Assembly: GCA_037178625.1 (NCBI GenBank) | Contig: CM074129.1 | Span: 682,001-746,000 of the forward strand | Reading direction: 5' to 3' | DNA: 64,000 nt | Source of the DNA: Skeletonema tropicum | Taxonomy: Eukaryota; Bacillariophyta; Thalassiosirophyceae; Thalassiosirales; Thalassiosiraceae | Part shown: positions 36,000-42,513 of the stretch, one piece after another | How positions within the stretch are numbered: position 1 is the stretch's first letter | Layout: each line of letters opens with the position of its first letter | The notes under the pieces: model-generated | What the model saw: only the letters and a program-made list of their open reading frames with translations | Told to the model about the DNA's origin: nothing | Database searches by the model: none | Translations under genes and position numbers: made by a program

Positions 36000-37400
36000 T
36001 GATGTGGATGGATGATGCTGTGTAGATATGATGTGGATTGATAAGTAGTGTTGGTGGATGTGGATAGTGTTTGATGATTGAATGGGTTGAGAGGAGGGGA
36101 ACATAGACATGGAGAGATACATACATGATTGTTGAAGGGATAATATATCAGAAATTTTTAAAGTACGTCTGATTGTTGGAGGGATAGAGAGATGGGTTTG
36201 TGTGTCTCATAGACATAAAAGGAAGTGAAGGAGACAAAGCCCAATAATAGATAATAGATACATAGATATTTTGTTGGAACAAGAACAAGCAATAAGTGAT
36301 GAGAGAAACTCATGTCAGAAGAACACTCAAGTAGTAGGTCGTGTATGATTTTCGCGCTGAGGTCGAATGATAGAATAATAAAGTTGTGAGTTGCGACCAT
36401 CTCTCTTCTCTCTCTAGAGCATTGCATACCACCAATTCTATTGTAGTCTGTTCGAAGAAACCGTGATACTTATTCAGAAGTTTCGAACTTGAAGCAAGAT
36501 CAGACTACAGAGTGCCAGAAACGCGAAGTAATCATTGATTTATGCAAAAGACCCTGGGGCAAAGCTGCCCTGGGCAAAGCTGACAGAATGTTCCGAACTT
36601 TCCACTTCTCATCTTTTCTCGCTCGAATGAGAATGAGGTAGTTATGTATTCTACATCCTCTTGTGATTATGCTTTTGGAGATATGGCCGTCTTAATGGTT
36701 GGCGTAGGCTACTATTGGCCACGCGATAGAAGTATTTTCTCTCGATTTAAAAATCGAATCGAACGAGGCCAAGAGAGAGTCGTTCGAGGCCTTGCGTTAA
36801 AAAATGATGAATTCCCAGTAAGTGTAAAGTGTAAACAAGAACTTCAAGCAAGATCAAACGACAAAGTACCAGAAAAAATGATTTATAGATAAGACACACT
36901 CAGGAGATTATTTTGCGAACCAATAAGTAAGTAGTTGCGAACAGGCCTTCCTATCCCTGCACTGTCGATAGATTTAAGTGTACTGCTATCCAAGCTTCTT
37001 CAGAAGGCTAGAGTTACACCCGTCCTCGGAGCGGCTCTAGTCCCGTATATTCGTGACTCACAGCGTTAGGAGTAAGAAGCTTGTTCCCGCCGGCCGCCGC
37101 ACGCACAATTTATGTACATATGTATACATAACGTACAGCAAATATCTAATAATTGAAGCGGTAGTCAACTGAACGAGCGCTAATTGATTTCAACAAAGAT
37201 GCACATAACCTATACAGAAGCCCCACACACACGATCGAACCTTCTTGTGTATGTTATGTATATCTCTTCTTCATTAAAATTGCGAAGATTGATAGATACT
37301 CCTCTAGAGAGAGAGAGAGAGAGATCTTCCAATTTGCTAGAGAGGCTGAGTACTGCTACTGCAAATACATAATAAATAATTGCATAGGAGTAAATAGGAA
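36000..37400. other. Intergenic, with repeat pieces and a GA microsatellite
   Basis: Holds fragments related to 18580-18730 in reverse (GAACTTGAAGCAAGATCAGA and GAGTGCCAGAAACGCGAAGT at 36487-36530; again at 36840-36870), and a (GA)n run at 37308-37323. No supported gene was found. Confidence 0.4.
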
Positions 37401-37409
37401 TGATTAAGT

Positions 37410-38040
37410 ATGGCAGAAGAACAACCACGTCTTCCCTCTTTAATGAACGATTCTCCGGCAATGAAGTCAAATTCAAGCGATACATCGTCTTCATCTTCAG
37501 AGTCGACAGTGACAGTTCCAAATGAAGATGTATGCTGCATCCGCATCACTAACTTCTTGCATCTTCGCTCACCACGTGCCGTTGATGCCGTGACGAATGA
37601 TATTAATCTGACCAAGGAATATGTGGATGTAATGGCAATGGGTGCCCACGCCCACGCGAGAGTACCTGACAATGAGAAGACACCACTAGCTATTTCTCAA
37701 AAGAACAGCAGTCGACCTCCACGCTATCCATCACCGCCCGAAGATGTCCAGAGCGAAAAGTTTGTCACAACTCCGAAGCGACCCCAGAAAGCAAGCGATG
37801 ACTTAGCTAAAATCACCAACGAGCCTCGATCTGCAGGTTTATCTATGCCTATACTATGTCAATCTCCACCCGAATCCGAATCTCTTCGACACTCTCACTC
37901 TCATCTGATTAGTACAGCAAATATCAACGCTCCCTTGCTTTCACTCAATTCCAGGTCATTCGCCAAAAACTTCGAAACGGTGATGCCTCCTGCTCCTGTA
38001 CCTCTGATTCGCTTGAAAATGAGGCGTCTTAACCAGAAGA
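37410..38040 (+). pseudogene. Ser/Pro-rich family member 3, interrupted by piggyBac
   Basis: The first ~205 codons match copies 1 and 2, apart from a 12-nt loss that removes ICGS from the Cys motif. The match stops after LIRLKMRR at 38026. A TTAA at 38029-38032 marks the start of foreign DNA. The host gene resumes only at about 40537 with its last codons (ENFNLRRESKLPHN frame), so roughly 130 bp of host sequence (the KGTTTYHHVDRDPETMDPR part) is gone. This is a dead copy. Confidence 0.75.
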
Positions 38041-40540
38041 TGCCCAGGGGATAATGAAAAAAATCTCACAAAAATGGCGAAGATGACGACGGCGCACTCC
38101 GACACCCCACCCTTCCCTTTCCCGTTCTCGTGCCAATGCCAATAAATAAGACTGTAACTACTCGGAAACGATCATCAATAGACTACCTTTCGAGGGCGTA
38201 TACTATCTTTTTCACCATGGCTTCCTCTGCTGCTAACGACGATGCTGAAGTCACTGATGCCGAAAATGGCGCGTCATCCGATGAAGATGACACCCCAGAA
38301 GCAGATGCTGTATTATCTATTGGAGGAGATGATATATCCATGCAAAGTGTTGCCGACGACGATATCCCTGATATATACAACAATACCAACGCCTCTAGAG
38401 ATCAAGAGAGCGATGATGAAGTCTCTGTTCAAGGGGCTGAAGATGAGGGTGAAAATGAGCCCGATGGCCGCAACATCGACACCAGCTCACCAGATGACGA
38501 AGAGGAGGATGACGATGACGTATACTGGAAACAACCCCGTCCAAAGAACACCTCATTCATACATTTCATTCTATTGAGAAACAAGCTAGTTTTTATTAGT
38601 TTTGACATTGAAACGGGAGGAGAGCACTGTGGTATTATCCAATTTTCGGCACAAATCATGAGGATGACATGCAAAAACGCAGATGGTAGTGATGGTGATT
38701 GGTTGTACAAACAATCCAAGAAGAAGAAATGGGATACGACAAGAGGACCAACATTCGACATGTTTGTATATCCTGGGGACAAAGCTGTTTGGAACGACAG
38801 CTTAATGGACGTGCACGGACTACATGCCGAACACGAAGAGATCAAACGTGCCAAGGAAAATGGACAGGACATCAGAATGGTGTGGGGCGAGTTCTGCAAA
38901 TGGGTTGAAGATAACACGCAACGTGACGAGATAGCAACTCTTGTGGCCTACAATGGACAAACCTGCGATCTAAAATGGATATGGCGTCATACTCAAGCCC
39001 CTCATTCGCCGGGCCGATTCCCGTCAAAGATTAAGTTCTTCATGGACCCACTGAGTGTAATAAATAATTATGCTACTTGCGAGCTCAACAAGAAGAAGTC
39101 AAACCTGGACAGTTTAGAACTCGGATACGTTTGGCAATATCTCAATCCACAGACTCCGTTTCCAGGCGAGTTGCACAACTCTCTGACAGATGTGAAGCTC
39201 CAGTGTGATATCATTTCACATGGAGTCTTTGCTCCTCACATCAACCGGTCGAGCTCGGTGAAACAAATCAGTGATATTTTCTCTGCGGCAGATAGGAAGG
39301 ATATGGAGAAGGATCTAGAGCCAACCCGGTTTGTTCATCATCCATGGCAAGAAATTACTCCTAACAATGATTTTCAATGGCAACCAAATCAGCAGGATTC
39401 TTATGAAGGCCATAACGGTGGTCCAAAGGCGGGTCCATCAAACGATGCTGTCAATGCAGCAAGAGCAATTAAAGTTAATGGTGGTGATCTTTCTGACTTA
39501 TACTTGTTAGTGTTAGGCTATGATGAATTCTTCGTCGACCTTGTCGCTAAACAAACTGCGTCATACGCTGAAGAGTGGGTGGTAGAGAAGCAGGTGAAGG
39601 ATAGAGATGGTAAACCAAAGAACAAGCCGATGCTGCAGTTGTGCAAAGAAGGAACACCCCGTCCAACAAACGCTCGCCGCCGCAATGCAAATGAAAAGAA
39701 AAAGTACAAAATCACTGGTGGCTATGTCCTTGCTTGGCATGCTATTACTATCATACTTGGTGGTCATCTTGGTGCGGACAAGGGCAACATACGAAGAGCT
39801 TGGACAAAACCACCTCATGGTATTTCAATGCCGTATATCAAGAATGCTATGAGCCGAAACGCATTTGAGTATTTGAAACGATACTTGCACTTTGCAGACA
39901 ACAAACTTCGTAAGAATAAAGATGAGGAGGGGTACGATCCATTATTCAAAGTTACATCTGCTCTGGAACTTATGATAAAGGGTTTACGAAAAATTTGGAC
40001 ACCGGGCCAGCGAATCACTATTGATGAATCGATGGTGAAGTACTGCGGAAGAGCAATTACATTTGTACAGTACATGCCTGCAAAACCCATCAAACATGGT
40101 ATCAAGATCTTTTGTGTTTGTTGCGCTGAATCAGGAATATTGCTCGGGTTCGAAGTGTATTGTGGAAAGGAGAATGTCGGACGTGATAACACTGCACTTG
40201 CTGTGGTGGAAAGGCTCATCAAAGATGCTAATTTGACTCGGCAGCGAGGACGTATCCTCTTCACCGACAATTGGTATACATCTGTCAAACTTGCGAAGCA
40301 CCTGTTTGAGAAGCATAGGTGGACGTTTTGTGGCACCATCGTCCCTACTTCAAAGAAGACTCGAACTGATTATGACATCCCATTCCTCAAGTTATCTAAT
40401 AGTGCGAGGCGGAGGCTGTTCAGGGGATGGAGCCGCGAAGCAGTACTAAAGCTGAAACATCAACGCACCAACTATGCCATACAGTGCTCAACATGGAAAG
40501 ATAAGAAGCAAGTTGTATTTCTTCACAGTGGCTCTGAGAA
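38029..40540 (+). mobile_element. piggyBac-type element, 3' end deleted
   Basis: It begins at a TTAA, the target used by piggyBac, followed by CCAGAAGATGCCCAGG. It encodes one long fused transposase. The right part ends inside the transposase frame at about 40535, with no TTAA and no right inverted repeat; host sequence follows directly. The junction shares GAGAAG/GAGGG with the host, suggesting a microhomology-mediated deletion that removed the element's 3' end and ~130 bp of the host gene. Confidence 0.72.
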
Positions 40541-40580
40541 GAGGGCATCTCGAGAACTTCAATTTGAGGAGAGAAAGTAA
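38217..40580 (+). CDS. DEDDh exonuclease fused to piggyBac transposase, C-terminally truncated
   Basis: From the ATG in CACCATGG context (38217), 787 aa. Residues 1-108 are very acidic. Residues 124-340 carry a DEDDh 3'-5' exonuclease fold: FDIETGG (D130, E132; Exo I), VAYNGQTCDLKW (D251; Exo II) and HNSLTDVK (H320, D325; Exo III). Residues about 430-780 are a DDE_Tnp_1_7 (piggyBac) domain with ITIDESMVKYCGR (first Asp, D603), ILFTDNWYTSVKLAKHL (second Asp, D684) and the STWKDKKQVVFLHS strand. The third catalytic Asp and the Cys-rich C-terminal domain are absent: the frame runs into leftover host DNA, giving the final RASRELQFEERK from the wrong host frame. The exonuclease active site is complete, the transposase site is not. 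No introns or stops separate the domains, so the fusion is genuine in this copy. An upstream Met (38130) would add 29 residues. Confidence 0.82.
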   Translation: MASSAANDDAEVTDAENGASSDEDDTPEADAVLSIGGDDISMQSVADDDIPDIYNNTNASRDQESDDEVSVQGAEDEGENEPDGRNIDTSSPDDEEEDDDDVYWKQPRPKNTSFIHFILLRNKLVFISFDIETGGEHCGIIQFSAQIMRMTCKNADGSDGDWLYKQSKKKKWDTTRGPTFDMFVYPGDKAVWNDSLMDVHGLHAEHEEIKRAKENGQDIRMVWGEFCKWVEDNTQRDEIATLVAYNGQTCDLKWIWRHTQAPHSPGRFPSKIKFFMDPLSVINNYATCELNKKKSNLDSLELGYVWQYLNPQTPFPGELHNSLTDVKLQCDIISHGVFAPHINRSSSVKQISDIFSAADRKDMEKDLEPTRFVHHPWQEITPNNDFQWQPNQQDSYEGHNGGPKAGPSNDAVNAARAIKVNGGDLSDLYLLVLGYDEFFVDLVAKQTASYAEEWVVEKQVKDRDGKPKNKPMLQLCKEGTPRPTNARRRNANEKKKYKITGGYVLAWHAITIILGGHLGADKGNIRRAWTKPPHGISMPYIKNAMSRNAFEYLKRYLHFADNKLRKNKDEEGYDPLFKVTSALELMIKGLRKIWTPGQRITIDESMVKYCGRAITFVQYMPAKPIKHGIKIFCVCCAESGILLGFEVYCGKENVGRDNTALAVVERLIKDANLTRQRGRILFTDNWYTSVKLAKHLFEKHRWTFCGTIVPTSKKTRTDYDIPFLKLSNSARRRLFRGWSREAVLKLKHQRTNYAIQCSTWKDKKQVVFLHSGSEKRASRELQFEERK

Positions 40581-41532: not shown

Positions 41533-42513
41533 TCAGTTCAACTCCAGAAAGGGGAGAACATTCTTGATAATGATGCCCGCACTAGATGTGATACGAAGGT
41601 TATTCCTCTCATATTTAGCATCGACCTTTATTTTCATTGCTTTCGTCCCTTCGACAGATTCTTTCTCGTCAATCTTGGCCTTCCACAGAGCAAGTTCAAG
41701 TAGTGTGGTGGCCTCCTTCAATAGTACTTTGTGTACAGCTTTGTAGTATTCCAATCGTCGGATGACTGACCTGATCCATTGCTGTATAGCTGGAGTCTTG
41801 TCTCCTGATCCCTCCTGCTGGAAAATGCAACTTCCACCCCGGACATTGAGGAGATATTGATTGATTCGATCGATTCCTCTCTTCATTTCATTTCTCCAGC
41901 TCTCCATATGCAAAGATTCAACAGTATTATGGATCCCCCCAACTAGATCCACTGTTGACAAATTCGGACAGTTATTGAATGCACCATCTTCGATCATATC
42001 ATCTTTCAATGGCAAGGCGATTCGTTCGAATTTACGGCAGGTTTGGAATGCGTCTTCCTTTATTGTGTCAAGATCTTCACCGCATTCCACATCAGATAAG
42101 TCAGCGCACCAGCGGAATACCATCTTTCCAATGGTCTTCACAGAAGGCATTCGGACATTTTTCAACTTGGTGCAAAAGAAGGCATTGTCCCCAATTCTTT
42201 CCAGCCTGTCACCAAATTCTACATCTGTTAAAGCGGTACCATGGAATGCTGAGTCTTTGATGATCTTGACGCCCAGCAATTTAATGCATCCCCTCAACGA
42301 GAGGCATCCGCAGAACACTTCCTCCTCAATAATTTCGATCTCATCGTGAAACTCCACATAAATGAGATCATAACGTTGTTTGAATGCTCGTGCAGGAATA
42401 ATTTTGACGGATCTATGGATTCTGGCACGTCTGACACGATCGGGCACAACTTGATTGGCGCCCATGTAGACAAAAATCTCATCATCATCATCATCTCGCT
42501 GTGCCTCCGCCAT
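41533..42513 (-). CDS. LRR_5 (BspA-type) leucine-rich repeat protein
   Basis: A 326-aa protein. After an acidic start (MAEAQRDDDDDEIFVYMGAN) comes a cap with VPDRVRRARIHRSVKIIPARA, then about six BspA-type LRRs of the form I-x-x-x-A-F-x-x-C-x-x-L-x-x-V-x-L, ending near NCPNLSTVDLVGG. A C-terminal helical region follows (INQYLLNVRGG, QQWIRSVIRRLEYY, LLELALWKAKID). This architecture is greatly expanded in centric and raphid diatoms; the repeats are presumed to bind proteins, but the role is unknown. A truncated relative lies at 18716-19087. The start is the first Met; there are no introns. Confidence 0.72.
   Translation of the reverse strand: MAEAQRDDDDDEIFVYMGANQVVPDRVRRARIHRSVKIIPARAFKQRYDLIYVEFHDEIEIIEEEVFCGCLSLRGCIKLLGVKIIKDSAFHGTALTDVEFGDRLERIGDNAFFCTKLKNVRMPSVKTIGKMVFRWCADLSDVECGEDLDTIKEDAFQTCRKFERIALPLKDDMIEDGAFNNCPNLSTVDLVGGIHNTVESLHMESWRNEMKRGIDRINQYLLNVRGGSCIFQQEGSGDKTPAIQQWIRSVIRRLEYYKAVHKVLLKEATTLLELALWKAKIDEKESVEGTKAMKIKVDAKYERNNLRITSSAGIIIKNVLPFLELN

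Follow-up and report, generated by a model that had tools for sequence, protein, structure and literature searches.

We describe a defective copy of a DNA transposon in the diatom Skeletonema tropicum that encodes, in one open reading frame (ORF), an exonuclease followed by a piggyBac transposase. The copy lies in a window of 64,000 nucleotides (C3:682001-746000, contig CM074129.1, of a 78.4-Mb genome in 125 contigs). The reading that we favor, and consider probable, is that it is a right-end-deleted copy of a piggyBac-superfamily element, and that the transposase of its lineage has a fused N-terminal DEDDh 3'-5' exonuclease that acts on 3' DNA ends. The join of exonuclease and transposase is genuine and common to a family of relatives. 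The window copy is a defective remnant that has lost its tail and looks dead. The coding features are as follows.

38217..40580 (+): exonuclease-piggyBac fusion ORF, 787 amino acids plus stop; its ATG aligns with the first Met of the database relatives P0002 and P0003.
38532..39329 (+): DEDDh exonuclease domain, residues 106-371 (D130, E132, D251, H320, D325), from alignment, profiles and predicted structure.
39663..40529 (+): transposase part (piggyBac), residues 483-771; it includes the first and second catalytic Asp and breaks off upstream of the third and of the cysteine-rich tail.

The frame is free of stops from 38058 to 40577 (840 codons), with its first ATG at 38217 and its stop codon at 40578-40580, and the 787 codons from that ATG on contain no internal stop. 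An initial annotation of this DNA had placed a DEDDh exonuclease and a truncated piggyBac transposase in a single frame at 38217..40540. Its start is the first ATG, and its end falls 40 nt before the true stop. The observation is confirmed: all five DEDDh residues are present, the DDE_Tnp_1_7 family is matched, the third Asp is absent, and homology to the full-length relatives stops at 40529.

The fusion recurs in other sources. A first protein search returned 6 relatives, two of which, P0002 (1023 aa) and P0003 (1021 aa), are 72-73% identical to the query over 98% of its length. With P0003 as query there were 18 matches, P0003 included, and a profile search gave 40; the union is 43 database proteins (P0002-P0044). 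At E <= 1e-3, 21 of these match profiles of both parts, 19 the exonuclease only and 3 (P0006, P0007 and P0023) the piggyBac part only, in a comparison in which many members match by construction, the profiles having been built from 20 and 13 family sequences of an alignment, A2. The 19 exonuclease-only proteins, all of 293-443 aa, are probably fragments. Full-length relatives are about 1000 aa long and have three catalytic Asp and a cysteine-rich tail. One relative has a named organism (P0015, Thalassiosira profunda), and 91 stretches of viral contigs that matched a pattern yielded no relatives. In P0030 (467 aa) the exonuclease is followed directly by the piggyBac cysteine-rich tail, with no transposase core.

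The call of an exonuclease rests on family evidence (matches to RNase_T and of the family profile to PDB entries) and on the predicted fold of the window domain, since Pfam finds no exonuclease family at E <= 1 in the window protein alone. At E <= 0.1, RNase_T matches 8 of the 20 rows that make up A2, the strongest at 6e-4 but still short of the curated cut-off, and in P0024 both RNase_T and DDE_Tnp_1_7 are above their curated cut-offs. Against the PDB, the family profile matches CRN-4 at 4.2e-5. A structure prediction, which the initial annotation had named as a check on this region, gives the window domain a DEDDh (DnaQ-like) fold with a predicted local distance difference test score (pLDDT) of 87 and speaks in its favor. 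The window copy has all five residues of the set Asp-x-Glu, Asp and His-x4-Asp, in codons that start at 38604 (D130), 38610 (E132), 38967 (D251), 39174 (H320) and 39189 (D325). Over the 20 rows, the window copy included, the first Asp is present in 19 and the Glu, second Asp, His and third Asp in all. This catalytic set is kept among relatives that are 34-46% identical to P0003 (P0001 and P0002 left out), which argues that the exonuclease does something for the element. From sequence and modeled structure, the domain is predicted to have 3'-5' exonuclease activity.

The transposase part matches the piggyBac fold. DDE_Tnp_1_7 (PF13843) aligns with residues 524-713 of the window protein at E 3.8e-32 and is matched by 17 of the 20 rows. 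Among rows with a letter at the position, the first catalytic Asp is kept in 16 of 16, the second in 13 of 14 and the third in 11 of 11. The window copy is counted in the first two, as D603 (codon start 40023) and D684 (40266), and is without both the third and the C-terminal cysteine-rich domain. The missing C-terminus was sought in the window with tblastn, which gave weak, scattered matches only (E 0.43 or worse). A hidden further exon in the window is ruled out by this result and by the 3' flank, which is host sequence shared with paralogues.

The element interrupts a host gene, and its borders can be read against paralogues of that gene.

37410..38032 (+): 5' portion of the host gene broken by the element, within sequence that is 95.6% identical to locus L034, where the frame continues to RASRELKFEERK; it matches no Pfam family at E <= 1.
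38029..38032 (+): target TTAA at the left border of the element, where homology to L034 stops and homology to other copies of the element begins.
38033..38056 (+): left tip of the element, the first 15 nt of which (CCAGAAGATGCCCAG) are the terminal inverted repeat.
38033..38185 (+): left end of the element; two places that form one duplicated segment match it at 100%, and a third matches as far as 38180 at 95%.
40529..40530 (+): junction of element and host, at which the element lacks its right end and the host about 84 bp; homology to the element ends here and the L034 alignment starts at 40529.
40530..40580 (+): last codons of the ORF (...RASRELQFEERK stop), derived from the host; L034 has a near-identical peptide in the same frame.

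The flanks of the element match an inverted paralogous segment, L034 (C3:173-178 kb), at 94-96%. The host frame there reads ...RLKMRRLN-GSTFHHIDQDPETMDSRQTISGFVPLLYDSGRK-RASRELKFEERK stop, with TTAA at the point at which the window is interrupted, and four further paralogous stretches have GTAA at that point and no insertion. In the window the element begins with CCAGAAGATGCCCAGGGG right after the TTAA. At 40529-40530 the sequence returns to that of the host, some 84 bp farther into the host gene. It does so in the frame of the fusion, whose last codons are therefore those of the host. The order of events would be insertion followed by a deletion across the right junction, and L034 could represent either the locus as it was prior to insertion or one that precise excision has restored. 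An inverted repeat with arms at 36771 and 40943 was ruled out as the ends of the element, as each arm falls within sequence that is also present in L034, which has no insertion.

The left end of the element is abundant in the genome. A 20-nt end, TTAACCAGAAGATGCCCAGG, occurs with at most 3 mismatches at 183 places (94 forward and 89 reverse), and the reversed pattern at none. The 24-nt left tip, taken without its TTAA, has 73 exact copies, of which 65 come directly after an exact TTAA, 7 after a close variant of it with one or two changes and 1 (C20:527485) after neither. Some tips lie in duplicated segments (a pair on C16 and an array of four on C8), so these copies do not all stand for separate insertions. 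Within the 100 ends listed of the 183, 14 pairs point toward each other at distances of up to 8 kb, each with a span of 1375-1408 bp, against 0.24 expected from random placing on one line. Three of these 1.4-kb elements were read. They are 88.5-91.2% alike, and each has TTAA on both sides, perfect 15-bp inverted repeats and no stop-to-stop frame longer than 139 codons. Their first 33 bp after the TTAA are those of the window element. Of the left end of the window element, 157 bp recur at 100% in two places, which belong to one duplicated segment, and 152 bp at 95% in a third.

The fusion is the only transposase gene found in the genome whose own end bears this tip, because the other PF13843 places, 12 in 11 fetched 8-kb stretches, have no frame of at least 50 aa that matches the exonuclease profile at E <= 1. 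We infer that the fusion moved the 1.4-kb elements. Other piggyBac genes were considered as their source and rejected: they have no exonuclease frame, and a tip that lies beside one of them (at L015) belongs to a separate 1.4-kb element. The youngest of the other piggyBac families has different ends, as read by eye. The TTAA count in L001 alone is under the shuffled mean and is uninformative.

Two observations concern the repeats themselves. Four loci (L013, L014, L015 and L017, at C2:3.36 Mb, C3:4.30 Mb, C14:2.32 Mb and C7:1.05 Mb) hold a further family of piggyBac type, whose copies share 99.8-99.96% identity across 2.2-2.6 kb. Its ends, by eye, are GGGTTCCCTCCTGG...CCAGGAGGGAACCC, each in two of the three copies printed, and the family was probably active recently. 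At C8:286686-299670, the left end occurs four times on the minus strand at intervals of about 4.32 kb, apparently in a tandem array that contains an end of the element.

piggyBac transposition leaves TTAA overhangs, passes through hairpins and is free of DNA synthesis. By this chemistry an intact enzyme of the family would nick at TTAA, form hairpins, excise the element and re-insert it at another TTAA. The exonuclease, held at the transposition complex, would trim or remove 3' DNA ends exposed during excision and integration. We regard this as its most likely role and give it about an even chance. The window copy would be unable to move by itself. More tentatively, and with the odds somewhat against it, we postulate a diatom piggyBac lineage that spread the approximately 100 non-autonomous elements seen here and whose bifunctional enzyme depends on the exonuclease for a step, at the ends of the transposon or of the donor, that the synthesis-free textbook scheme lacks.

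Several points weigh against the reading that we favor. Textbook piggyBac needs no exonuclease, because its chemistry requires no synthesis. The window copy is the only coding copy of the fusion that the protein search of the genome gave, and no full-length copy was found there (best 5 candidates scored). Because the window copy alone was found, no coding copy showed its right end, and terminal inverted repeats at both ends were seen only on the non-coding 1.4-kb elements, to which the fusion is linked by 33 shared left bp after the TTAA and the 15-bp repeat. P0019 has a His at the first exonuclease Asp. Finally, the top Foldseek match of the exonuclease model is an RNA enzyme, 3'hExo (E 3.4e-7), and the Foldseek TM-scores, normalized by query length, reach a modest 0.43 to 0.49 over the first ten rows.

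These structural matches suggest a different substrate. The exonuclease could act on RNA in the manner of ERI1, degrading small RNAs or transcript ends and shielding the element from host silencing. The top three Foldseek matches are all 3'hExo/ERI1 (E 3.4e-7 to 4.9e-7), VIA-align scores 3'hExo at 17.0 and ERI3 at 16.5, with TREX within about one unit, and the family profile matches ERI1 exoribonuclease 2 at 0.005 (ERI1 itself, at 0.48, is not significant). Similarly, P0024 and P0042 match the Rv2179c-like 3'-5' exoribonuclease family in Pfam, P0042 above the cut-off. However, the best exonuclease matches of the full P0003 model are TREX1 and TREX1-like enzymes, and fusion to a transposase would place the enzyme at transposon ends and not with small RNAs. 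We consider an RNA role unlikely.

Less likely again is a role that is no step in transposition, in which the exonuclease would control copy number or quality by destroying transposon DNA that is excised or abortive, or the ends of rivals. A TREX-like fold and a tip common to many non-autonomous ends would suit such a function, but 183 places with non-autonomous ends do not suggest strong exclusion.

The initial annotation had also left room for domestication, that is, a host gene in which the exonuclease was kept and the cutting activity of the transposase was lost. The 787-codon frame and the exonuclease residues are intact, the transposase is truncated and the last codons are those of a host gene in frame, as such a gene might look. 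We nevertheless think domestication very improbable. The TTAA insertion is absent from the paralogous segment that is 94-96% alike, the right end has been deleted, the left 157 bp are identical to two other places, and changes are similarly frequent in both parts, with neither selectively kept and no excess over P0002 and P0003. In a three-way, unrooted count of unique changes (exonuclease/transposase), the window copy has 16/15 (in 266 and 289 columns), P0002 19/26 and P0003 31/37. Where at least 85% of the other rows agree, the window copy departs at 5 of 56 columns in the exonuclease and 8 of 91 in the transposase, P0002 at 7 and 10, and P0003 at 4 and 12. These counts fit a young copy of a working element and give no sign that one domain was kept and the other released.

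A chance join or assembly artefact of two unrelated genes, which the initial annotation would have preferred had no second genome copy been found, draws on the one coding copy in this genome (best 5 candidates scored) but is refuted, to near certainty, by the relatives: the same fusion occurs in other sources, P0002 and P0003 match over 98% of the query, and 21 of the 43 relatives have both parts.

The lineage shares with the piggyBac superfamily (piggyBac, PDB 6x67; piggyBat, 9c0f) the DDE_Tnp_1_7 core, the TTAA target, short inverted repeats that begin 5'-CC and, in full-length relatives, the DDD residues and the cysteine-rich tail. It differs from these two in its extra N-terminal DEDDh exonuclease and in length, as full-length relatives of about 1000 aa compare with chains of 594 and 578 aa. 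PMC3627910 credits Kapitonov et al. with a piggyBac element that has a DEDDh nuclease, in passages that give no taxon, layout or sequence, and the main text of a meeting report cited there (PMC3520738) does not contain piggyBac, DEDDh or exonuclease. The element of Kapitonov et al. may or may not be of the present lineage. We found no description of the fusion in diatoms in the open-licence papers searched; Repbase, which lies outside that search, may hold one. The fusion is not mentioned in passages of PMC6431247, PMC2628886 and PMC3985635, and PMC8086355 contains none of five words sought in it.

Nucleases of this kind occur in other DNA transposons. KolobokD is presented in passages of PMC9587614 as a TTAA-specific lineage that encodes a DEDDh exonuclease like Exuperantia, TREX and ERI1, proposed to degrade DNA intermediates from the 3' end; these passages do not state if nuclease and transposase form one chain. 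Our lineage is likewise TTAA-specific with a DEDDh nuclease. In contrast, its ends are 5'-CC...GG-3' where those of Kolobok are 5'-RR...YY-3' (PMC9587614, same passages), and its transposase is in PF13843, with a piggyBac fold, and is not a Kolobok transposase. A DEDDy exonuclease lies inside the core of the Dada transposase in Laccaria bicolor and Ectocarpus siliculosus, according to passages of PMC3706591, which suggest the same role as ours, processing of cleaved 3' ends. Unlike that enzyme, the domain described here is N-terminal with His-x4-Asp; Dada, as those passages have it, is of another superfamily and targets small RNA genes. Together with KolobokD and Dada, the present family suggests that DDE-type transposons took up DnaQ-like nucleases more than once.

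Because it can cut TTAA sites and seal them again with no DNA synthesis, piggyBac has found wide use in gene transfer. A natural family that joins such a transposase to a 3' exonuclease prompts the question of what the nuclease contributes. It also provides material for a test: a left end with its target site, an inverted repeat and the full-length proteins.

The surroundings of the element are repetitive. Window positions 17.1-19.6, 33.0-34.0 and 36.0-42.6 kb correspond to C3:173-207 kb in a large inverted duplication that holds several copies of the interrupted host gene, in pieces 70-96% alike. Just upstream of that gene, 36987-37117 is a dispersed repeat of about 120 bp with at least 30 copies at 85-97% on many contigs (best 40 of 151 candidates scored). 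On the other side, a gene for a BspA-type leucine-rich repeat protein (41533-42513, minus strand; LRR_5, E 7.8e-29) adjoins the element. The genome is marked as that of a diatom by nine places that match the silicon transporter family (best E 2.7e-245), three of which are neighboring pieces on C18.
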